From Candidatus Fermentibacterota bacterium (GTDB lineage: Bacteria; Fermentibacterota; Fermentibacteria; Fermentibacterales; JCC-6), in contig JAUVIR010000016.1 in NCBI GenBank assembly GCA_030592645.1, forward strand, positions 1 through 51,984: 51,984 nucleotides of DNA, given 5' to 3'. Of this stretch, positions 16,241 to 41,230 are shown piece after piece. The translations under genes were made by a program, and so were the position numbers. A model generated the notes under the pieces. It saw only the letters and a list, made by a program, of their open reading frames with translations. It searched no databases and was not told the DNA's origin. Positions within the stretch are counted from its first letter, which is position 1. Each line of letters starts with the position of its first letter.

Positions 16241-17341
16241 ATGACTTTGTTGCCCTGTATTGTGTTTGTTATATCGGGGATATTTTCCGTTGATTACCTT
16301 CCTCCGCCTGATGGTATCGGTTCTGAAATTCTCCCACTGAATTCGAGATCCTACGGTATGGGGGGGATCTGTGCCGGTGTGCCCGTCAGTACGGGTTTTT
16401 CCATGCTGAACCCTGCCGCTTCCGCATGGACTCTGGCGGGAGGGATCAACCTGTCTGGAAGGTACAGTGAAGGTGATCTGCAGGCCTGGGATAATCAGCT
16501 TGATTTCCCGACAGTTTCTGCTTTTGTGCCGCTTCCGGGGGGAATAGTCCTCTGTGGTGCCATTGATGCGCGAAGCAGGATCGATTCTGAGCTTCAGATG
16601 GAAGTCAGCGATGATTATATGGGGAATTTTTCCTGGACAGGCGGTCTTTCGGAAACCTATACCGGTCTTTCCTTCAGAACCAGTGACTGGCTGGCCTTTT
16701 CTGTAGGAGGGCGCTGTTCTTTCGGGAATATCCAGTCAGATGTAACTCTTACACAGACAGAATTGATCACCCCGACCTCGGACAGCTCAGTTTACCGCGA
16801 TGATGCTCATTTCCGCATGGCATGGGGAGGTGTATTCGGGATACTGGTAAAAACTGAACGATTCGGATTGGGTTTCTCCATATCAACTGACAGGAAGGGA
16901 ACCCTCGAAGTAGACAGGGATTTCCTTGCATCCTCGGAAACCGACAGCTCCCGCAGTATGTACTCTCTTCCAGGTGAAGTATCTATTGGAATATCATTCA
17001 GACCGATTGAAAGGCTTCTTATCGGTGCGGATATTTACAGTAGAAAGGTCATGGATATTCTCAGCATCCATACGGAACCGGGAAATGTGTATTCGGTTGG
17101 AGCCGAAGTATATGCTGGAAACGGCATTTCGTTCCGTTCGGGATTTTCCTATATGGATGGATTATGGAGGGACGGTTCAAAAACCGTAGCAGCGGGCGGA
17201 GGATACACTTTCAACGAGGGAAGGGCGGGGGTGGATATCGCCGCCGGTTATCAGTATTGGCGTGACGAGGAGGATATCTTCGGGGAGGAAACGGTATTAA
17301 GTATTTCAATATGGGCTACTGAGAAATGGCTGGGAGAGTAG
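16241..17341 (+). CDS. Outer-membrane beta-barrel protein (PorV/FadL-like)
   Basis: A 366-residue protein with a signal-like N-terminus and alternating strand patterns throughout, ending in aromatic SISIWATEKWLGE. The start of the mature part (LPLNSRSYGMGGICAGVPV, then MLNPAASAW) resembles the N-terminal pattern of PorV/PorQ and OmpP1/FadL-type barrels common in FCB bacteria. Function is not known: transport of hydrophobic compounds or an accessory role in type IX-like secretion are both possible. It has a good GGAG site and overlaps kdsB by 16 bases. Confidence 0.6.
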   Translation: MTLLPCIVFVISGIFSVDYLPPPDGIGSEILPLNSRSYGMGGICAGVPVSTGFSMLNPAASAWTLAGGINLSGRYSEGDLQAWDNQLDFPTVSAFVPLPGGIVLCGAIDARSRIDSELQMEVSDDYMGNFSWTGGLSETYTGLSFRTSDWLAFSVGGRCSFGNIQSDVTLTQTELITPTSDSSVYRDDAHFRMAWGGVFGILVKTERFGLGFSISTDRKGTLEVDRDFLASSETDSSRSMYSLPGEVSIGISFRPIERLLIGADIYSRKVMDILSIHTEPGNVYSVGAEVYAGNGISFRSGFSYMDGLWRDGSKTVAAGGGYTFNEGRAGVDIAAGYQYWRDEEDIFGEETVLSISIWATEKWLGE

Positions 17342-25467: not shown

Positions 25468-25548
25468 ATGGCTGCAAGTGATCAGCTGCACGATCCCACC
25501 GGTTTAAACACCAGAGTCATTCTTATTAAGATGCGAGGATCATATTGA
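25468..25548 (+). CDS. Possible 26-residue leader peptide
   Basis: ATG 25468 follows an AAGGAG site at the right distance and opens a 26-codon frame ending in TGA at 25546-25548, which overlaps the TTG start (25545) of the membrane protein gene. The overlap suggests translational coupling. The peptide has no recognisable motif, and its coding status is uncertain. Confidence 0.35.
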   Translation: MAASDQLHDPTGLNTRVILIKMRGSY

Positions 25549-26993
25549 GCGGAGAGCGAACCGGTAGAGCAGACTATCTGATAGCTGTCGCTATTGCCGT
25601 CTCGCTGTTCTACTGTCTTGCGCTGGTAGTTGATCTTCCAGTTGTGTCAGACTTTATTAAAGAAGTCCTGTCCGCAAGAATGAAACCAGCCCCCGGACTC
25701 TGGCTTTCAGCTCCCCTGGCGTTGATTCTGATCTTCGTTGTGCGACTTATCTTCCGCTCCAGTCTCAGACTGAGCAGAAAGATAGCTCTGATCGTATTGA
25801 CCGGTTATCTGATACAGGTTGTATTCTTCTCCGCTGGATGGCAGGGTTTCACGGAAAGGCGCAACTCCTGGATGCGCAGCGGTCAAGTCACTTTCCTTGA
25901 GCCAGTCGGCTCAAGTATCGCCAGGATGGCAAAACACTACGAGGAGATCGTTACCTTCTCCGAAGAAATGGACCCTTTGCATGTTACCAAGCCACCCGGT
26001 ACTGTTCTTTTCTATATGGCTTTCGGAGAGGGTGTAAGGCAGATTTCAGGTATTCTGCCGGAAAGCTCAATTGAACACAGGATTATTCATGCAGGCAGCT
26101 TTCTATTCCCCCTGATAGCTGTGCTGGCAGCGGTGCCCCTGATTCTATTGTGCAGAAACCTGGGTAATACTGAGATTGGTCTTGCAGCTTCACTGATGTT
26201 GATATCATCACCTTACTTCGTACTCATCTTTGCCCATGCCGACAAGTTTCTCTATCCCCTGATCGGACTGTCTGCGATATATCTGGCAACACTCTCCATT
26301 CGCATGAAAAGCATCCTCATGGTGGTGCTTGCAGGTATCATGACCCAGGTTACTCTGTTTTTCTCTTTCTCCCTGATTCCCATTGCAATACTGGTGTTCT
26401 TCGTGCTTAGCACAGACTGCAGCCTCTTCCGAAACGGCATACCCGGGCGTAAGGGTCTGAGTGTAAACTCAATGAAGTATCTGGTATTCGGACTTATCGG
26501 TTTTACAACCTGCTACATCCTCTTCAGAGTTATCCTGGGATATGATGCTCTTAGACATTTCATCACTGCCATTGGGAGACACAGCCAGTGGAAGTATGAG
26601 TGCCTGGGTTTCAGCTGGAATCCCGGCTATGTGATCCTATTTGCCGGCAGAAACTTCGCAGAGTTTGGTTTCGCCATCGGAGCAGGATTAGTGCTCCTGT
26701 CAGCAGCAGGATGCATAAAAGCGGGAAGAGATCTTCTGCGGAAGCAGTCTTCCCGTATTGCGGTCTTCAGTATTCTTGTGGCGTTTCTTCTGCTGGTAAC
26801 TGGATTTCTGGGAAGAACCGCAGGAGAAGTAAGCCGGCTCTGGATATTCTTCCTTCCCCTTCTGTGTATTCCGGCTGCTTATCTGATCACAGGCAGCGTT
26901 TCCGGGAAGCGGCTTTCTCTGAGAGTGACGATCGTAGTGTTGTTCCAGTTGTTCACTACAGCATTCATCAAACATTTTCAGGATTTCTTTTAA
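25545..26993 (+). CDS. Polytopic membrane protein, GT-C glycosyltransferase-like
   Basis: The 482-residue product has about ten to twelve hydrophobic helices. A loop after the second or third helix contains DPLHVTKPPGTVLFYMAF; a KPP motif at this place is typical of lipid-linked-sugar glycosyltransferases of the GT39/ArnT type, which act on the periplasmic face. No close family is identified. The TTG start has GAGGA upstream and overlaps a small open frame. Its neighbours (LPS genes upstream, sphingolipid-type genes downstream) suggest glycosylation of an envelope lipid; this is inference. Confidence 0.6.
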   Translation: MSGERTGRADYLIAVAIAVSLFYCLALVVDLPVVSDFIKEVLSARMKPAPGLWLSAPLALILIFVVRLIFRSSLRLSRKIALIVLTGYLIQVVFFSAGWQGFTERRNSWMRSGQVTFLEPVGSSIARMAKHYEEIVTFSEEMDPLHVTKPPGTVLFYMAFGEGVRQISGILPESSIEHRIIHAGSFLFPLIAVLAAVPLILLCRNLGNTEIGLAASLMLISSPYFVLIFAHADKFLYPLIGLSAIYLATLSIRMKSILMVVLAGIMTQVTLFFSFSLIPIAILVFFVLSTDCSLFRNGIPGRKGLSVNSMKYLVFGLIGFTTCYILFRVILGYDALRHFITAIGRHSQWKYECLGFSWNPGYVILFAGRNFAEFGFAIGAGLVLLSAAGCIKAGRDLLRKQSSRIAVFSILVAFLLLVTGFLGRTAGEVSRLWIFFLPLLCIPAAYLITGSVSGKRLSLRVTIVVLFQLFTTAFIKHFQDFF

Positions 26994-27034: not shown

Positions 27035-27982
27035 CTATTCCTTGATACGGTTTTTCTGTGCCTTGACCCACTGAAGCGTTATTTTCATGGCTGCCTCGAC
27101 TGGAATCGCAGGTTCCCATCCTGTGAGTCTGTGAGTCAGCCCTTCCTCGAGGGGCCATTCATTTGCCAGCAGTTCTCTGCATTTATCCCTGCAGAAGAAA
27201 GGCGTTCTTCCGGTGAGGGAAGCCAGGGCTTCGGACATGAATCCCGCTGTATGTATAAGGACCGGTGGTATGCGCAGATGCAGTATCCTTCGTCCGGCGG
27301 CTTTTTCGAGTATCTCATGAAAATCCTTCCATGAGAAAAGCCTTCCGTAGGATGGTTCGAGAGTTCTGCCTGCAGTATCCGGATGATCGGGAAGCTCCGC
27401 TATCAGCCTGGCGAGGTCACGTACATAAACAAGACAGAATCCGCCTCTGTTCATCCACGGGGAGGCGAAAAATCCTCTCAGTGCCAGTTTCATAACCGGC
27501 GTGGATGCGGGATCCGCGGAGCCGAAAATTGCGGGAGGGCGCACGATTACCCAGTTATCAGTATCTCTGACCGCGAATTCACCCAGCAGTTTGCTTCTGC
27601 CGTAATCTGTTACGGGTCCGTTTCCTGCAGGTCCCGATGCAGCCTGGCTTGAGATATAGATGAATAGTGCGTTCTTTGCGTACCTGTCTCTTGCGGTCAG
27701 CAGGTTTTTCGTTACAAGGGCGTTTGCTCTGTCGAAATCCTCCTGGCTTGCAGCGCTCGTAGCGCCTGCGGCATGGATTATCAAATCTGCTCCCGTAAGA
27801 TCCTCAGCCATGGAATCAGGGTTCATGAAGTCTACGCGGGAGATTCTGCATTTATCGGACAGGTTCGAAAGCGATGAAGACTGCCTGAGAAGGGCATGAG
27901 CCAGTATTCCTTTTTCCAGCAGGATGTCTATAATATGACTTCCGAGGAAACCTGAAGCACCGGTGATAATTGTTTTATTCAT
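27035..27982 (-). CDS. Extended SDR (NAD-dependent epimerase/dehydratase family), candidate ceramide-pathway reductase
   Basis: A 315-residue Rossmann protein with GASGFLGSHI at residues 8-17, the active-site pair in TDYGRSKLLGE (YxxxK) and VIVRPPAIFG. It is divergent from a serine palmitoyltransferase-like gene with a short shared control region. In Caulobacter the oxidised sphingoid intermediate is reduced by an SDR annotated in this same family and encoded near the palmitoyltransferase gene (CerR). That parallel is my reason for proposing a keto-reductase role. On sequence alone it could equally be a sugar-nucleotide or sterol-type SDR. Confidence 0.75.
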   Translation of the reverse strand: MNKTIITGASGFLGSHIIDILLEKGILAHALLRQSSSLSNLSDKCRISRVDFMNPDSMAEDLTGADLIIHAAGATSAASQEDFDRANALVTKNLLTARDRYAKNALFIYISSQAASGPAGNGPVTDYGRSKLLGEFAVRDTDNWVIVRPPAIFGSADPASTPVMKLALRGFFASPWMNRGGFCLVYVRDLARLIAELPDHPDTAGRTLEPSYGRLFSWKDFHEILEKAAGRRILHLRIPPVLIHTAGFMSEALASLTGRTPFFCRDKCRELLANEWPLEEGLTHRLTGWEPAIPVEAAMKITLQWVKAQKNRIKE

Positions 27983-28071
27983 ATTTACCGGATTCCGTTG
28001 ACTTTTGAAGGTATACTGATTAATTTCCTTCGCAATGCTACATAGTGATTAAACCAATGACAAGGTGTAAT

Positions 28072-29265
28072 ATGAATAACACGCCCAACGATGTATTTCA
28101 GAAGTGCTACGAGTACGAAAGACTTGAACAGGTTATGAAATCGGGACTCTACCCGTATTTCATTCCCCTCGGCGGGCATGTCGGAGCTGAGATGGAGATC
28201 GATGGACACAGCATAATCATGCTCGGTTCCAACAATTACCTGGGGCTTACGGATCATCCAAAAGTAATGGAGAAGGCGAAGGAAGCCATAGACAAGTACG
28301 GTACGGGCTGTACTGGCAGCAGGTTCCTCAACGGAACCCTTGACCTTCATATCGAACTTGAGGATAAACTTGCTAAATTTCTTAACAAGGAAATGGCTAT
28401 AACTTTCAGTACGGGATTTCAGGCAAATCTTGGTGTTATTTCAACTATTGCGGGTCGAAACGATATAATCTATCTGGACAGGCTGAATCATGCTTCAATA
28501 ATCGATGGGGCCAGGATGAGTTATGCCAGGAATCTCAAATACAGGCATAACGATCACGAGCATCTTCGTTACCTGCTTGAGAACAACAGGGATAATCCGG
28601 GTGTGATAGTCACCGACGGTGTTTTCAGTATGGAGGGAGATCTGGCTGACATTCCGGGATTGATCGAGATCAGCAAAGAATTCGGAGCCCGGCTGATCAT
28701 TGATGATGCTCATGGTATCGGAGCCATGGGTTCAACCGGCAGGGGAACTGCCGAGCATTTCGGGTGTCATGATGAAGTTGACATTCTGGTGGGCACTTTC
28801 AGTAAATCGTTTGCGTGCATCGGGGGTTTTGCCGCAGGACCGGCAAAGGTAATGGATTATATCAAGCATACCGCAAGGACGATGATATTCTCCGCCAGCC
28901 TCCCGCCTGCCGCTGTGGCAACCGTGATTGCCGTATTGGAAACACTCGAGAATGAACCGGAACTTATAGTGAATTCCCACAGGGCGGCGGAGAGAGCCAG
29001 GCAGGGGCTTGCGTCTCTCGGATTCAATGTTGGTAATTCTGAAGCCCCGATTATCCCGATAATCGTGGGAGACGAAGCCCAGACGCTTATGTTCTGGAAG
29101 CAGCTGTTCGGGGAGGGGGTCTTCACAAATCCCGTTGTAAGCCCGGCTGTTGCAAGCGGCGGCGAACTGCTGCGAACCAGCTATATGGCTACCCACACCG
29201 ATGACATGATAGATCGTGCTCTGGACATTTTCGAGAAGTGCGGCAGGGAACTCGGTATTATTTAA
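28072..29265 (+). CDS. spt: Serine palmitoyltransferase-like alpha-oxoamine synthase
   Basis: A 397-residue PLP enzyme of the family that joins an acyl thioester to an amino acid. Key features are GSNNYLGLTDHPKV, KYGTGCTGSRFLNGTLDLH, LNHASIIDGARMSY (stacking His), DDAHGIGAMG and the PLP lysine in GTFSKSFACIGGF. The N-terminal GLYPYFIPL and the overall pattern resemble Bacteroidetes serine palmitoyltransferases more than BioF or glycine C-acetyltransferase. There is no biotin or threonine pathway gene nearby. The frame opens with GTG at 28045; I favour ATG 28072, which follows AAGGTG. It would make 3-ketosphinganine, with the next gene as acyltransferase. Confidence 0.82.
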   Translation: MNNTPNDVFQKCYEYERLEQVMKSGLYPYFIPLGGHVGAEMEIDGHSIIMLGSNNYLGLTDHPKVMEKAKEAIDKYGTGCTGSRFLNGTLDLHIELEDKLAKFLNKEMAITFSTGFQANLGVISTIAGRNDIIYLDRLNHASIIDGARMSYARNLKYRHNDHEHLRYLLENNRDNPGVIVTDGVFSMEGDLADIPGLIEISKEFGARLIIDDAHGIGAMGSTGRGTAEHFGCHDEVDILVGTFSKSFACIGGFAAGPAKVMDYIKHTARTMIFSASLPPAAVATVIAVLETLENEPELIVNSHRAAERARQGLASLGFNVGNSEAPIIPIIVGDEAQTLMFWKQLFGEGVFTNPVVSPAVASGGELLRTSYMATHTDDMIDRALDIFEKCGRELGII

Positions 29266-29278
29266 TTCTGGAGGTTCA

Positions 29279-30403
29279 ATGTCTTTCTCAATAGAAGAGG
29301 TAGACAGCAGAGGTCAGCTGCGTGAGTTTATTGACCTTCCTTTCAGGCTCTACAGGGATGATCCTTACTGGGTGCCTCCCGTGAAGTACTTTCAGAAGGA
29401 ACTTTTCGACAGGCGGAAGCATCCTTTCCATGAGCACAGTGATGTAACGGTATTCCTTGCCAGAAACGGCGGGGGCAGGCCTGTCGGCCGCATCGTATCC
29501 ATCGTGAATCATGTTCATAACGATTACCATAATGAAAAAACGGGATTCTTCGGATTTCTCGAGGGAGAAAAGGACGAAGAGCTTTTCAGGCTCCTTCTGA
29601 GTGCCGTTGAAGGTAAGCTGAAGGCAGCCGGTATGGAAAAAGTAAGAGGACCGATGAATTTCTCGACCAATGAGGAGTGCGGACTGCTGGTTAAGGGATT
29701 TGACTCATGCCCTCTTATCATGATGACCTACAATCCGCCCTGGTATAAGGATATGCTTGAGGGAACAGGTTACGGGAAGCTGAAGGATCTCTTCGCCTAC
29801 TATCTTGATTCCGGTGTTCTGGATTATTCGAAAGTATCCAGGGTTGCGAACCTTGTAGTGAAGAGAACCGATGCTGTCATCAGAAATATTTCCGTGAAAC
29901 ACATTCACAGGGAAGTCCCCGTGATCATGGATATATACAATGAATGCTGGGAGGATAACTGGGGATTCGTCCCCATGACTCAGCGTGAAATGGATATGAT
30001 GGCGGATGAGCTCAAGCTGATAATGCTCCCCCAGCTTGCCCCCCTGGTTGAAATCAACGGAGAACCTGTCGCGTTTGCCATTTCACTTCCGGATGCCAAC
30101 CAGGCTTTCCGGCGGGCCGGAGGAAACCTGATAAAGGCCGTACTGGCGCTGAAAGTGCCGCTCTTCAGAACTCGAATCACCCAGGTGAGAGTGATGCTGC
30201 TGGGAGTCAGAAAGGCATTCCGGGGACGCGGCCTCGAAGCTCTTCTGATTGACAGGGTGATCAGTTCCAGTATCGAGATGGGGATGGGACGGGGAGAGCT
30301 TTCATGGATACTTGAAGACAATATGCCCATGAGAAAGATACTCGAAAACGATCTTAAAGCTGATCCGTATCGAATCTACAGGATATACCAGAAGAACATT
30401 TAA
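29279..30403 (+). CDS. GNAT-family acyltransferase, candidate bacterial ceramide synthase
   Basis: The 374-residue protein has the N-terminal LPFRLYRDDPYWVPPVKYFQ segment, GFFGFLEGEKDEELFRLLL, then RGPMNFSTNEECGLLVKGFD and MMTYNPPWY, with a second GNAT-like half ending in VRKAFRGRGLEALLIDRV. This two-part GNAT family is often unannotated. Bacterial ceramide synthases described in Caulobacter are GNAT-type acyltransferases. The direct position 13 bases after the serine palmitoyltransferase gene, with a GGAGG site, makes N-acylation of the sphingoid base the best guess. An amino-acid or other N-acyltransferase remains possible. Confidence 0.7.
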   Translation: MSFSIEEVDSRGQLREFIDLPFRLYRDDPYWVPPVKYFQKELFDRRKHPFHEHSDVTVFLARNGGGRPVGRIVSIVNHVHNDYHNEKTGFFGFLEGEKDEELFRLLLSAVEGKLKAAGMEKVRGPMNFSTNEECGLLVKGFDSCPLIMMTYNPPWYKDMLEGTGYGKLKDLFAYYLDSGVLDYSKVSRVANLVVKRTDAVIRNISVKHIHREVPVIMDIYNECWEDNWGFVPMTQREMDMMADELKLIMLPQLAPLVEINGEPVAFAISLPDANQAFRRAGGNLIKAVLALKVPLFRTRITQVRVMLLGVRKAFRGRGLEALLIDRVISSSIEMGMGRGELSWILEDNMPMRKILENDLKADPYRIYRIYQKNI

Positions 30404-30420
30404 CAATCAGAAGGACTGGA

Positions 30421-32208
30421 ATGACTGCGGAAGAACTCAGACATCTCTATTTCGATTTTTTTGCCGGGAAAAACCATACACTTATTCAGGGAGCTTCGCT
30501 TATTCCACAGGAGGACTCCACCATTCTCTTCACTCCCGCTGGAATGCAGCCGCTGGTACCCTATCTGCTCGGAGAGAAACATCCTGCCGGAAAAAGGCTT
30601 GTAGATGTTCAGAAGTGCATCCGAACCGGTGATATCGAGGAGGTCGGAGACTCTTCCCACCTTACCTTCTTCGAGATGCTTGGAAACTGGTCACTTGGGG
30701 ATTACTTCAAGCGGGAAGCCATCATCTGGAGCTTCGAGTTTCTCACAGACCGGAAATGGCTTGGTTTCAAACCGGAGCAGCTTCATGTAACGGTTTTTGC
30801 GGGGGAAGGAGAGATTCCTCCGGATGAGGAAGCTGCCGCGCTCTGGGAAGAGGCGGGCATTTCCTCGGATCGTATCTATTTCCTCGGCAGGGCAGACAAC
30901 TGGTGGGGACCAACAGGAAATACCGGACCCTGCGGCCCCGATACGGAGATATTCATCGATACCGGATTACCGCCCTGCACCCCCGAGTGCAGGCCCGGCT
31001 GCGGCTGCGGGAAGTACTTCGAAATTTGGAACGATGTTTTCATGGAGTACCGCAGAACTGCTGATGGCCAGTACGTTCCTCTGGAGCAGAAGAACGTGGA
31101 TACCGGTATGGGTGTTGCCAGGACAGTTGCGATGATGAACGGCTGCTCCACCATTTACGATATTCCCCAGTTCGAGCTCCTGTTCGGATTTCTGAAAAAA
31201 CTGTCAGGTCTGGGAACGGAACCCGACGACCAGGCGCTCCGCTCACTGCGGATAGTATCCGATCACATCAGAACGGCTACCCATATTCTGGGGGATGATC
31301 AGGGTATTCCACCATCAAATCTGGACAGAGGGTACGTACTGAGAAGGCTTATCCGGCTTGCTGTCAGGCACGGCCGGAAACTTGGCATAGATGAGCCCTT
31401 CACTCACAGGCTTGCAGAATTTGTCATCGATGTTGAGTCACCTGTTCACGAGGAACTGGCACGAAACCGGAAGTTCATCCTTGATGAGCTTTCCATGGAG
31501 GAATCAAGGTTCGAGAAAACACTGCAGTCCGGTCTGCGGGAATTCGAGAAGATCCTTCCCAATCTTATGAAGAATCCCGCGAAAATCATACCCGGAAGAA
31601 TCGCTTTCAGGCTATACGATACCTACGGATTCCCGGTCGAATTCACAGCCGAGCTTGCCTCTGAGCATGGCATGACAGTCGATATGGAAGGTTACGGTAA
31701 AGCATTCGACAAGCATAGAGAGCTATCCAGACAGGGTGGGGATCAGAAGTTCAAGGGTGGTCTCGCCGACAACAGTGAAATTGTAACCAGGCTTCACACC
31801 GCGACCCACCTTCTTCATCAGGTTTTGAAGGATGTACTCGGTGATCAGGTGGAGCAGAAGGGAAGCAACATCACTGAGAAGAGGCTCCGGTTCGATTTCA
31901 GCTATCCTGAGAAAATGACGCCTGAACAGATCGCTCTGGTGGAAAAGAAGGTTAACGAGATCATCAAGGCAGACCTGTCCGTCAGCTCCGAGGAGACAAG
32001 CCTTGAGCATGCTCTTGAAGATGGCGCTATCGGGCTGTTTCGTAGTAAGTATGGTGACAAGGTAAAAGTCTACAAAATAGGGGATTTCTCCCTGGAGATC
32101 TGCGGGGGACCCCATGTCGGCAGAACCGGAGAACTCGGGATATTCAGGATTGTGAAGGAGATGAGTTCCTCAAGAGGCATAAGAAGAATAAGGGCGGTAC
32201 TTGAATGA
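30421..32208 (+). CDS. alaS: Alanine--tRNA ligase, short form without the C-terminal domain
   Basis: The 595-residue protein has the class II catalytic core (LFTPAGMQPLVPYL, DVQKCIRTGDIEEVGDSSHLTFFEM, TGNTGPCGPDTEIF, and TGMGVARTVAMMNG), the tRNA-binding region and an editing domain with HTATH at 459-463 and C561...H565 in CGGPHV. The usual editing motif is CGGTH. The roughly 875-residue family normally continues with a DHHA1/C-Ala domain that is absent here; the gene ends with a clean stop coupled to the next start (ATGA). Similar short forms exist in reduced-genome lineages. Confidence 0.92.
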   Translation: MTAEELRHLYFDFFAGKNHTLIQGASLIPQEDSTILFTPAGMQPLVPYLLGEKHPAGKRLVDVQKCIRTGDIEEVGDSSHLTFFEMLGNWSLGDYFKREAIIWSFEFLTDRKWLGFKPEQLHVTVFAGEGEIPPDEEAAALWEEAGISSDRIYFLGRADNWWGPTGNTGPCGPDTEIFIDTGLPPCTPECRPGCGCGKYFEIWNDVFMEYRRTADGQYVPLEQKNVDTGMGVARTVAMMNGCSTIYDIPQFELLFGFLKKLSGLGTEPDDQALRSLRIVSDHIRTATHILGDDQGIPPSNLDRGYVLRRLIRLAVRHGRKLGIDEPFTHRLAEFVIDVESPVHEELARNRKFILDELSMEESRFEKTLQSGLREFEKILPNLMKNPAKIIPGRIAFRLYDTYGFPVEFTAELASEHGMTVDMEGYGKAFDKHRELSRQGGDQKFKGGLADNSEIVTRLHTATHLLHQVLKDVLGDQVEQKGSNITEKRLRFDFSYPEKMTPEQIALVEKKVNEIIKADLSVSSEETSLEHALEDGAIGLFRSKYGDKVKVYKIGDFSLEICGGPHVGRTGELGIFRIVKEMSSSRGIRRIRAVLE

Positions 32209-33140
32209 GAGCATCCCTGGTTACTTTAATTTCAGTGCTTCTATTTCCACTGTTACTGGCGGCTTCGGAGCTGCCGGATTTTTCCGGAACCTGGGAAACC
32301 ACCTACGGCACACTTTTTCTGCAGCAGGACAATTCTGTCGTAAGCGGGTACTATACACTTGATGGTTATTCAACAGTCGAGGGTACAGTCGACCGGAACG
32401 GAAAGCTCATATTCACATACAGCGAACCAACCGCTTCAGGTGAGGGCTGGTTCGAACTCTCCGATGATTCCATGAACATAAGTGGTATGTGGCGTCCGGA
32501 CGGTGGAGGGCAGTGGTTAGAATGGGAAGGGTACAGGGCAGGCGTCGGGGTCGCTTCATCCAAATGGCTTGTAATTCTCGAATCCGAATGGCAGACGTCC
32601 CTTGCAGAGGAGGAATATTCGTTCGGTGAAATGCTGGCAGCCTGGTTTGCAAGGGTGCCGGGTGTAACCGTCAGGCACAGGTTCATCCATGATGCGGATG
32701 ATCTTAAAACCTTCTGCCTTGAATCATCAGGTCTTCCCGGTGAGCTTTACCTGGTGATCGCTTCCCACGGATCGTCTTCGGGTATCGAACTGACGTCCGG
32801 AAACGTATCTTCAAGGGAGTTCGTCGATGCCATAAGACCGCTGCACAATCTCGCCATGATACATTTCAGCTGCTGTGAGATAATGGCCGGGCGAATGCCG
32901 CAGGCGATCGTATCGTCCAGGAGCAACTGGCCTGCGGATTTCATCGTTTCGGGGTATTCGCACAGTGTGGACTGGGGGGCAAGCGGTCTTATAGAGATAT
33001 TCTATTTCAATCAGATACTTGAGAACGGTTTTTCACCTTCCGATGCGGCAAACAGCGTACTTGAAGACATTGATTTTGCAGGGCAGTCTTCCACCAGATG
33101 GATGGACGCGGCTGGATTCAGCTGGATTGAAGCCGAATAA
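32205..33140 (+). CDS. Secreted protein with caspase-like His/Cys motif
   Basis: A 311-residue product with a signal peptide (about 1-20). Residues 24-110 form a beta-rich domain with repeated GTWETTYGTLFL and SGMWRPDGG elements, lipocalin-like in rhythm. Residues 118-305 look like a caspase/CHAT-type fold: LYLVIASHGSSSG places a His at 188, and IHFSCCEIMAG places Cys 223/224, the order and spacing expected of clan CD peptidases. The family is not recognised with certainty. It overlaps alaS by 4 bases. Confidence 0.6.
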   Translation: MRASLVTLISVLLFPLLLAASELPDFSGTWETTYGTLFLQQDNSVVSGYYTLDGYSTVEGTVDRNGKLIFTYSEPTASGEGWFELSDDSMNISGMWRPDGGGQWLEWEGYRAGVGVASSKWLVILESEWQTSLAEEEYSFGEMLAAWFARVPGVTVRHRFIHDADDLKTFCLESSGLPGELYLVIASHGSSSGIELTSGNVSSREFVDAIRPLHNLAMIHFSCCEIMAGRMPQAIVSSRSNWPADFIVSGYSHSVDWGASGLIEIFYFNQILENGFSPSDAANSVLEDIDFAGQSSTRWMDAAGFSWIEAE

Positions 33141-39571: not shown

Positions 39572-40435
39572 ATGCCGGGGACGGTTCACGGACTACTGAA
39601 GACACGGGCATCAGGCACACCTGAAGCTGTTGCCCTTGAAGACGACCAGCGGAAACTAAGTTTTGCCGACTGGTGGCGTGTATCCTGTCATGTCGCATCT
39701 CTGCTTCAGAAAGCTGGAGTCCGGCAGGGATTTGTTGTGGGAGTTGTATCTAACCGATCCGTTTTTCTTCCGATAACCTTCACTGCAGTTTCCATGCTGG
39801 GAGCGAAATTCGTTTCGCTGAATCCGGATTGGCCGGCGCAGGAATGGATGCGGGTTTTCGGCAGATGGTCTGATCGCCTGCTTCTTACATTTAATGATAA
39901 CGGCTTCTCTTATACGGATGAGATCACCCTGTCTCTCAGCGATGATATCTTTCGGGGCAGTGAAAACCCTGTGGATCTTCCCGATCTGCAGGGCGATGAA
40001 GAGTTTTATCTGAACGTTACTTCAGCATCCACCGGTCAGGCAAAGGTTGCGCCTACAACCCATGCTCAGCTGTTGTCGAATACAGGCGGCGTTACAGAGA
40101 CCATGGGCCTGACCATCGATGATGTACACCTTTCCATCTTCGGCGTTTTCGGCCATCCGCATGAACTCTTCATGCGGGGGCTGTTCCTCGGCGGAAGGAC
40201 TGTACTGACCGAGCACAGGTATCCCCGGGATTTGCTTCATGTTATTTCAAGTACCGGGGTAACAGCCATAATGGCTCTCCCGACGCAGTTGATGAGCCTG
40301 TCGCATCTATGGAACAGAATTGATGCTGATCTGAAGTCCGTGAGGATAGCCGAAGCCGGCGGAATGTATGTTTCTGACGATTTCGCGATCAGTTTCACAG
40401 AAAGAACCGGCGTGGAGCTGATACCTGTATGGTGA
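39572..40435 (+). CDS. Acyl-adenylate (AMP-binding) ligase, N-terminal part, interrupted by in-frame TGA
   Basis: The first 287 codons of an ANL-superfamily ligase that activates carboxylic acids with ATP. The P-loop appears as TSASTGQAKVAPTTH, replacing the usual TSGTTGxPKG. The frame stops at TGA 40433-40435, exactly at the Gly of motif A5 (expected YGxTE; here VW, stop, STETAG). The frame continues without shift into 40436-41230, so this is either a pseudogene caused by a point mutation (GGA to TGA), a sequence error, or a readthrough site. The start abuts the SPFH gene stop. Confidence 0.75.
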   Translation: MPGTVHGLLKTRASGTPEAVALEDDQRKLSFADWWRVSCHVASLLQKAGVRQGFVVGVVSNRSVFLPITFTAVSMLGAKFVSLNPDWPAQEWMRVFGRWSDRLLLTFNDNGFSYTDEITLSLSDDIFRGSENPVDLPDLQGDEEFYLNVTSASTGQAKVAPTTHAQLLSNTGGVTETMGLTIDDVHLSIFGVFGHPHELFMRGLFLGGRTVLTEHRYPRDLLHVISSTGVTAIMALPTQLMSLSHLWNRIDADLKSVRIAEAGGMYVSDDFAISFTERTGVELIPVW

Positions 40436-40477
40436 AGTACCGAAACAGCGGGTGTCGTCCTTATAGGAGAGAGCGGA

Positions 40478-41230
40478 GTGCAGGGGTTCACGGTTGTTGT
40501 GGAGGGGTACGAGATAGAACTTCGTGACCTGTCAGGCAGCAGGACGAACGATAGCGGCAGCGGTGAACTATGGATTTCGGGACCCGGGGTTGTGAACAGG
40601 TACAAAGGAGACAGACCTCAGACTGAAGAAGCATTTCTTGATGGATGGTACCGTACCGGTGATATGTTCAGAACTGATAACGAAAGACTTATCTTTCTTG
40701 GCCGCAGGGGAGGACTGATAAAGGCTGCCGGTTTGAAAGTCTATCCACTTGAGGTTGAACTGGCTATACTGAAACACCCTTCAATCGTTGACGCATGTGT
40801 GGTAGGCAGGGATCACCCTTCTCGGGGCGAGATGCCTTCCGCTTACATTGTAACAAGGCCGGGATCTGAGCTAACCGTTGCGGGGATGAGGGCATTTCTA
40901 AGGCAGTTCCTTGATGAACACAAGATTCCAAGGCTCATCAATTTTGTTCACGGACTTCCGAGAACCGCAAACGGGAAGATCGACAGAAGGGCAGTGGGAA
41001 CAAGGGAGATCGTCCCTGATTTTCGGGGTGAACTTCTCAGGTCTGATGTGGAGCTTGTAAGGCTTATAAACCAGAGGGCGGAGCTGATGAACGAAATTGG
41101 AGGGGGATTTGACCCGACATGGGTGGATGACCAGGTGGATAACGCCGTAGGACATAATGCGGGTCCCGTATCCGATAGTTCTATAAGAGATTTAATCAGA
41201 TTCATTATCAGCGAGCTGGGGAAGAGGTAG
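40478..41230 (+). CDS. Acyl-adenylate ligase, C-terminal part, with chorismate-mutase-like tail
   Basis: This is in the same frame as the preceding part; if the TGA is read through it is one 552-codon gene from 39572. It contains SGELWISGPGVVNRYKG, DGWYRTGDMF, the LGRRGGLIKAAGLKVYPLEVE hinge region shown here in part, and the A10 motif PRTANGKIDRRAV. The last 65 residues (from about 41020) resemble an AroQ chorismate mutase helix (LRSDVELVRLINQRAELMNE) but lack the later Arg. A GTG at 40478 could start a separate protein lacking the ATP-binding half. DAHP synthase follows after two bases. Confidence 0.7.
   Translation: MQGFTVVVEGYEIELRDLSGSRTNDSGSGELWISGPGVVNRYKGDRPQTEEAFLDGWYRTGDMFRTDNERLIFLGRRGGLIKAAGLKVYPLEVELAILKHPSIVDACVVGRDHPSRGEMPSAYIVTRPGSELTVAGMRAFLRQFLDEHKIPRLINFVHGLPRTANGKIDRRAVGTREIVPDFRGELLRSDVELVRLINQRAELMNEIGGGFDPTWVDDQVDNAVGHNAGPVSDSSIRDLIRFIISELGKR

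Follow-up and report, generated by a model that had tools for sequence, protein, structure and literature searches.

The window analysed here, a stretch of 51,984 nucleotides from a Candidatus Fermentibacterota bacterium (contig JAUVIR010000016.1 of assembly GCA_030592645.1), carries three genes that probably encode the core enzymes of a ceramide pathway of the known bacterial type: a serine palmitoyltransferase (Spt)-like α-oxoamine synthase dependent on pyridoxal phosphate (PLP), a tandem-GNAT N-acyltransferase that is a candidate bacterial ceramide synthase (bCerS/CerS), and a divergent short-chain dehydrogenase/reductase (SDR) that would act as the reductase, the predicted product being a dihydroceramide-type lipid. 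The genes, their homology, their active-site residues and their conserved linkage were observed directly. Our confidence in the pathway is lowered because the claim includes the role of the SDR, for which a different function can be argued (see below). An earlier reading of the sequence (the original prediction) had proposed that the organism makes ceramide-like lipids; the Spt tree, a diagnostic alanine, the kinship of the GNAT and the conserved linkage support this, the lipid itself being predicted from the genes. The source genome is a 2.58 Mb draft, with the locus on its contig 56, and belongs to the same genus as Candidatus Aegiribacteria sp. MLS_C (Fermentibacterota). The locus comprises the following features.

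27035..27982, minus strand: extended SDR gene, candidate CerR, 315 aa (motifs, tree, predicted fold)
27983..28071, no strand: intergenic stretch of about 90 bases common to both divergent genes, where promoters are presumed to lie
28072..29265, plus strand: Spt-like α-oxoamine synthase gene (profile scores, tree, active-site residues)
29279..30403, plus strand: tandem-GNAT N-acyltransferase gene, candidate bCerS/CerS (predicted fold, kinship to spt-cluster GNATs)

All three open reading frames (ORFs) were found where the original prediction had put them, including the divergent extended SDR on the minus strand, about 90 bases from the gene of the PLP enzyme. For the PLP enzyme, the open frame starts with GTG 28045 and ends at 29265, and for the GNAT it extends from 29216; the ATG at 28072, with AAGGTG ahead of it, is the likelier start of the former, and the ATG at 29279, with GGAGG ahead of it, the likelier start of the latter, which would place the GNAT gene 13 bases past the PLP-gene stop, as predicted. 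A promoter consensus scan of the gap between the SDR and PLP genes returned one weak site on the minus strand (28063–28035, 9/12 matches) and nothing on the plus strand, with six promoter-like sites over the whole scanned region against a shuffled mean of 2.9; such a scan offers no real evidence of a promoter here.

Assignment of the PLP enzyme

In a tree of 76 rows, the PLP enzyme lies inside a 67-row clade (support 100/100) together with the solved Spt of Sphingobacterium (8guh) and Sphingomonas (2x8u) and the Spt of Parabacteroides, Roseomonas and Rahnella, and all nine Kbl, BioF and own-paralogue rows lie outside it. The phyla in this clade include Ignavibacteriota, Zixibacteria, Gemmatimonadota, Planctomycetota, Acidobacteriota, Binatota and Bdellovibrionota; the Fermentibacterota rows form a single clade (100/99), and the deeper forks are weakly supported. 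Most rows of the Spt clade were collected via GNAT linkage, those from the PDB, Parabacteroides and Priestia independently; sequences shorter than 280 aa, near-copies from Fermentibacterota and GNAT loci without Spt were excluded, and the outgroups contain no HemA, CqsA or SulA rows. The original prediction had called the enzyme serine palmitoyltransferase-like and had named a grouping with BioF or glycine C-acetyltransferase (Kbl) as the result that would speak against it; the enzyme groups with solved Spt instead and carries the Spt-type alanine described below.

Residues H149, D221, H223, K254 and R377 (numbered for the ORF from GTG 28045), which represent the PLP lysine and the α-oxoamine synthase active site, are all present. 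The best match in the PDB is the Sphingobacterium Spt (419.7 bits), and further matches are a BioF/Kbl protein (304.5 bits), the Sphingomonas Spt (282.8 bits), E. coli Kbl (259.2 bits), a cysteate acyltransferase (244.9 bits) and, as the best plain BioF, an entry with 210.8 bits.

A Kbl or BioF standing beside an unrelated GNAT and SDR would belong to the same superfamily, and the PLP enzyme is about 40% identical (39.8–40.8%) to plasmid-encoded proteins that carry a Kbl or BioF annotation, with the BioF/Kbl subfamily model TIGR01825 as its second-best NCBIfam match (402.9 bits). This explanation is nevertheless highly improbable, as it is contradicted by the tree, by residue A284 and by the conserved linkage; moreover, the source genome encodes three further α-oxoamine synthases (34–38% identical to the PLP enzyme), two of which group with Kbl, and these three score 295–325 bits with the Spt model SerpalmtaseCFB compared with 510 bits for the PLP enzyme. 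On tree position and A284, Kbl and BioF were rejected as assignments of the enzyme.

It is also conceivable that the condensing enzyme prefers another amino acid, either alanine or glycine (giving 1-deoxyceramides) or cysteate (giving a sulfonolipid of the capnine type), with the GNAT and SDR steps unchanged. α-Oxoamine synthases can be promiscuous, and this counts for such an analogue. Further points in its favour are the abundance of sphingolipids including 1-deoxysphingolipids in euxinic Black Sea water (PMC11334938) and the origin of the named congener MLS_C in euxinic Mahoney Lake (PMC4846661). For the cysteate form, the evidence points the other way. Cysteate acyltransferase SulA has Lys281 at a position where Spt has Ala (PMC9304779), and the corresponding residue of the PLP enzyme, 30 residues past the PLP lysine as in SulA, is A284; Ala is also found in the Sphingobacterium Spt and in 67/67 rows of the Spt clade, and the nine rows outside have Thr (five) or Asn (four). 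Alanine instead of lysine disfavours the sulfonolipid reading, and a cysteate acyltransferase is disfavoured by this residue and by the score of 244.9 bits versus 419.7 bits to Spt. A284 does not decide between serine and alanine as substrate. Taken together, we regard a lipid analogue as unlikely and favour the Spt assignment.

A plasmid of Priestia megaterium (L178, 4998–6212; Gram-positive host, typed as mobilizable) also encodes an Spt-clade enzyme, which is 48.7% identical to the PLP enzyme and has an FSAS motif; within 5 kb of this gene, GNAT and SDR annotations are absent.

The GNAT, the SDR and their linkage to Spt

The GNAT protein gave just a weak Pfam match (Acetyltransf_1, 22 bits), no match to NCBIfam models and none in a PDB sequence search at E values up to 1. 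Its AlphaFold2 model (mean predicted local distance difference test score, pLDDT, 94.5; predicted template modelling score 0.91) matches best the fold of the tandem GNAT MAB_4324 (7q3a, E 3.3e-15) and then other tandem GNATs, which agrees with the two-part GNAT of the original prediction. Relatives of the protein occur in 44 plasmid records, some of them in recognisable spt clusters: in the order spt-GNAT-SDR in Rubrobacter and Streptomyces; with a divergent SDR, spt and GNAT in Aureispira; and beside genes for a fatty acyl-AMP ligase, an SDR, an acyl carrier protein (ACP) and Spt in Roseomonas and Rahnella, a content resembling the Caulobacter gene set of PMC11324152. The GNATs of the Roseomonas and Rahnella clusters are 36% identical to that of the locus. 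In a quick tree (branch support from the Shimodaira–Hasegawa-like approximate likelihood ratio test alone; sequences shorter than 300 aa and near-copies excluded), the locus GNAT joins the spt-cluster GNATs, and not, as the original prediction had allowed for, a position outside ceramide relatives. This kinship makes the protein a candidate bCerS/CerS. A second GNAT paralogue of the genus (G000:C70:5765–6844, equal to L084; L090, 7488–8654), which is 31–33% identical to the locus GNAT and present in 16 of the 19 genomes of the genus, forms a separate branch, and the stretches fetched around its gene contain no Spt.

The SDR carries the motifs TGASGFLG at 7–14, S111/S112 and Y127xxxK131, and its model (pLDDT 94.7) has an extended-SDR fold with matches to many epimerases and to NDUFA9-type chains of complex I. 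The latter agree with the reported homology of CerR to NDUFA9 (PMC11087976) but lack specificity for CerR. A profile of the cluster-linked SDRs scored 429.8 bits with the locus SDR and 102.9 bits with the next SDR of the source genome, a gap inflated by the presence of the locus SDR in the profile. In the SDR tree (two short Fermentibacterota rows and one duplicate excluded), the protein belongs to a 100/100 group holding all 43 cluster-linked SDRs, of which two (L086 and L101) are linked to a GNAT only, within the fetched stretch. Among the 40 plasmid matches listed (59 in total), the best were from Rubrobacter (126 bits), Aureispira (120), Phocaeicola (115), Bacteroides finegoldii (108), Streptomyces (107) and an E. 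coli record (107); for four of these six, all except the two from Bacteroidota, a GNAT relative is encoded no more than 5 kb away. A listed GNAT match stands at a distance of up to 20 kb for 25 of the 40 and of up to 5 kb for 12, where two of the 25 pairs span the origin of the record and Roseomonas strains (many of them R. mucosa) make up much of the 25. The hopanoid-associated SDR HpnA was rejected as an identity (81.6 bits against a cut-off of 367.65), and the loss of a loop of about 10 residues before YGRSK was dropped as a lineage signature, the Roseomonas and Rahnella cluster SDRs also being without this stretch. A simple hydropathy scan found no hydrophobic segment in the SDR; Caulobacter CerR has been placed in the periplasm despite having no predicted transmembrane region (PMC11087976). 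The SDR is thus a candidate CerR, which would reduce the 3-oxo group of an oxidised ceramide or of 3-ketosphinganine, and its assignment is the least secure of the three.

The GNAT was searched for in 60 genomes. An orthologue was present in 38 of the 42 genomes of the order, the source genome included. The other four (G004, G014, G019 and G028) are drafts of 61–88% completeness in which neither a GNAT orthologue nor a full Spt orthologue was found, the Spt search giving just Kbl/BioF-like matches (34–38%) and one 31-residue fragment (61%). In the 35 Fermentibacterota loci fetched, the GNAT gene and alaS were found in all, Spt in 33 and the SDR in 30; all three genes are together in 30, and the remaining five end at a contig edge there. 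Two loci with broken frames (L054, with Spt in two ORFs, and L063, with many breaks) were scored as having the genes. The arrangement occurs in three families of the order, which excludes chance juxtaposition, and the three-gene cluster is probably inherited within Fermentibacterota. The original prediction had named absence of the cluster from related genomes as a reason to abandon it; the opposite was found.

A wider set consisted of the best 80 GNAT relatives listed in named genomes, six of them from Fermentibacterota. Within 5 kb, 49 have Spt, 37 an SDR, 35 both and 29 neither, and 15 (three of them Fermentibacterota) have the layout of the locus; where the sequence extends over 2 kb to either side of the relative (54 loci), Spt is present in 37 and Spt with an SDR in 30. 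The layout of a leftward SDR followed by rightward Spt and GNAT genes is shared by 12 loci from other phyla and by Aureispira.

These linkage data bear on whether the SDR is the reductase at all. Spt and GNAT could constitute the pathway while the SDR has another role, such as that of an envelope sugar epimerase beside the lipopolysaccharide (LPS) genes, and the ketone is reduced by another enzyme. One point for this is the ketosphinganine reductase activity of the Bacteroides SDR BT_0972 (PMC9278070). The divergent transcription of the SDR gene would fit this, as would the weak matches of the protein to many SDR families, the weak deep forks of the SDR tree and its low conservation: identity to other genera of the family or order is 35–48% for the SDR, 50–57% for the GNAT and 63–75% for Spt. 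Against this, the SDR stands together with Spt and GNAT in each of the 30 fetched Fermentibacterota loci whose length allows a judgement, as well as in 35 of the 80 loci of the best GNAT relatives, four of its six best listed plasmid matches have a GNAT relative at a distance of up to 5 kb, and the next-best SDR of the genome scores 102.9 bits compared with 429.8 bits, with a profile that includes the locus SDR. We therefore consider a non-reductase SDR improbable and retain CerR as its candidate function.

Several observations weigh against the assignment of the three genes to a ceramide pathway. The PLP enzyme scores below the cut-off of every NCBIfam Spt model, including its top model SerpalmtaseCFB (NF047600, 510.3 bits, cut-off 640), the second (NF047599, 393.3 bits, cut-off 500) and the third (NF047603, 307 bits, cut-off 670), and is not filed under these equivalogs. 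The BioF/Kbl subfamily model TIGR01825 (402.9 bits, cut-off 535.4) and the glycine C-acetyltransferase model NF005394 (385 bits, cut-off 460) come close to or exceed the second and third Spt models in score while staying below their own cut-offs, and the BioF model (378.2 bits, cut-off 426.45) and Kbl TIGR01822 (319 bits, cut-off 493) also fall short of theirs. With no cut-off reached, the models settle nothing beyond the lead of SerpalmtaseCFB, the cut-off of which was exceeded in only one of 14 control genomes, a set including Caulobacter and a Bacteroides. For the GNAT, 31 of the 80 best relatives have no Spt within 5 kb (17 among the 54 whose flanks both exceed 2 kb), and GNATs without linked Spt are interspersed among the linked ones in the tree, so that family membership alone does not prove function and the family may act beyond sphingoid bases. 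For the SDR, identity to SDRs from other phyla is only 24–34%, and the group of linked SDRs, in which the deep forks are weak, also takes in four long-branched rows without such linkage, namely RfbD, a Haloterrigena SDR and two paralogues from the source genome. The placement of the SDR with ceramide relatives, on which the original prediction depended, therefore stands for the grouping with the 43 linked SDRs but not for the exclusiveness of that group. Finally, the likeness of the GNAT and SDR to Caulobacter CerS and CerR is one of class, the sequences compared being the Roseomonas and Rahnella GNATs and not CC_1154 or CC_1164.

Close GNAT relatives without Spt within 5 kb (L102, L121, L127, L129, L130, L133, L142, L147, L156 and others) occur in Chloroflexota, Cloacimonadota, Ignavibacteriota and other phyla. 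For Cloacimonadota, the converse case of Spt-like genes without neighbouring bCerS or CerR has been reported (Ding et al., PMC11334938).

Predicted pathway and comparison with known clusters

We infer the substrates, the order of the steps, their location and the lipid product as follows: (i) the cytoplasmic PLP enzyme would form 3-ketosphinganine by condensing L-serine and a long-chain acyl thioester; (ii) the tandem GNAT would N-acylate 3-ketosphinganine at the inner membrane; (iii) the divergent SDR would reduce the 3-oxo group last, giving a dihydroceramide-type lipid; (iv) this lipid would reach the outer membrane of an LPS-bearing anaerobe. The order is adopted from the Caulobacter model, in which Spt forms 3-ketosphinganine, bCerS N-acylates it and CerR reduces last (PMC11087976), the reverse order of the last two steps being an earlier proposal (PMC11324152). 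AasR was discarded as the acyl-supply gene: the best match to Rahnella AasR in the draft genome has 45.6 bits, and no close relative was found there. With neither a close aasR found in the draft nor a linked acpR, acyl-CoA or a general acyl-ACP probably serves as the acyl donor.

The same three core classes (Spt, GNAT and SDR) are encoded in Caulobacter crescentus by aasR-cerR-acpR-spt and cerS (CC_1165–CC_1162 and CC_1154; PMC11324152, PMC11087976). In the Caulobacter-type cluster, acpR and aasR are linked, whereas the locus is without linked acpR or aasR and so falls outside the Rhodobacteria type, which is defined by AcpR and AasR linked to spt. The region 27035–33140 is occupied by the SDR, Spt, GNAT and alaS genes and ORF 32205, and an ACP gene would not fit. 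A further difference from Caulobacter is that no lptF or lptG was found among the ORFs scanned at 17326–40435. The parallel with Caulobacter drawn in the original prediction thus holds for the three enzyme classes, but the nearest match lies elsewhere, given the missing acpR and aasR, the other layout and an Spt that scores closest to the Bacteroidota type. The Bacteroidota type (NF047600; PDB 8guh, 3a2b) provides both the best Spt family and the best PDB match, although the PLP enzyme stays under its curated cut-off and Fermentibacterota form a separate clade in the tree. In sphingolipid-producing Bacteroidota, the three genes have been reported not to lie near one another (PMC11334938).

The 12 genome loci of the same layout come from Ignavibacteriota, Zixibacteria, Gemmatimonadota, KSB1, one Bacteroidetes and one Brocadiaceae metagenome-assembled genome (MAG); their proteins are 45–59% (Spt), 38–43% (GNAT) and 24–31% (SDR) identical to those of the locus, and the values for Aureispira are 44%, 30% and 27%. 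Spt-like proteins have been described in MAGs of 38 phyla, some of them with neighbouring bCerS and CerR genes (Ding et al. 2024, PMC11334938), and the ‘clade B’ of Black Sea MAGs in that work likewise spans diverse phyla, in part with bCerS and CerR close by. The words ‘Fermentibacter’ and ‘Aegiribacteria’ are absent from the main text of PMC11334938, ‘ceramide’ and ‘sphingo’ from the MLS_C paper (PMC4846661), and among open-licence PMC papers none was found with both ‘Fermentibacter’ and ‘sphingolipid’. Since Spt-like proteins are already on record for many uncultured phyla (PMC11334938), the suggestion that the pathway is extended to a little-described lineage can be upheld for Fermentibacterota alone.

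Judged from its genes, Fermentibacterota is very probably one little-studied phylum added to an already long list of likely ceramide makers, and the locus leaves the current view of bacterial ceramide synthesis unchanged. Its value lies in a complete three-gene ceramide set, stable within Fermentibacterota, that is placed in an uncultured anaerobic phylum by a tree and a diagnostic residue rather than by annotation. The divergent layout recurring in Fermentibacterota, Ignavibacteriota, Zixibacteria and others is a simple genomic marker, and lipid chemists gain a specific anaerobic source to examine. A further reading, speculative and with a small chance of being right as a whole, is that nearly the whole phylum makes sphingolipids in sulfidic anoxic waters and digesters, alongside LPS and from a vertically inherited locus placed after the string of Kdo and Lpt genes; as anaerobes of euxinic lakes, Fermentibacterota could on this reading be among the makers of the unassigned 1-deoxysphingolipids, through an enzyme using alanine as well as serine.

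Neighbouring genes

Three further genes flank the cluster or lie downstream of it.

25545–26993, plus strand: gene of a GT-C-like membrane protein, 482 aa, about 12 hydrophobic segments
30421–32208, plus strand: alaS, directly after the GNAT gene
39572–41230, plus strand: AMP-binding ligase gene, split by one in-frame TGA at 40433–40435 (IPVW*STET)

The genes for LPS with 3-deoxy-D-manno-oct-2-ulosonic acid (Kdo), which the original prediction had seen just upstream, were identified as kdsB, kdsA, kdsC, kdsD, an LpxL-like acyltransferase gene, lptC, lptA and lptB, accompanied by rpoN and a gene of the adenosine-specific-kinase family. The GT-C-like membrane protein is also present upstream as stated, but is not in the conserved unit: it has no match in Pfam or NCBIfam and no relative among the 56 loci searched, and was rejected as a part of the pathway. 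Among these 56 loci, the distance from the adenosine-kinase gene to the SDR gene is variable.

The alaS product is a short alanyl-tRNA synthetase (595 aa, PRK01584 type, 903 bits), and its gene stands at the same place in all 35 fetched relatives. The orthologues of the AMP-binding ligase in congeners, 14 full-length and one partial, are all open, so that, of the genomes searched, only this draft has the TGA, which is either a true nonsense mutation or an error of assembly. In eight congeners the ligase gene lies about 6–12 kb from the GNAT gene on the same contig, and a putative role of the ligase in acyl supply is possible.

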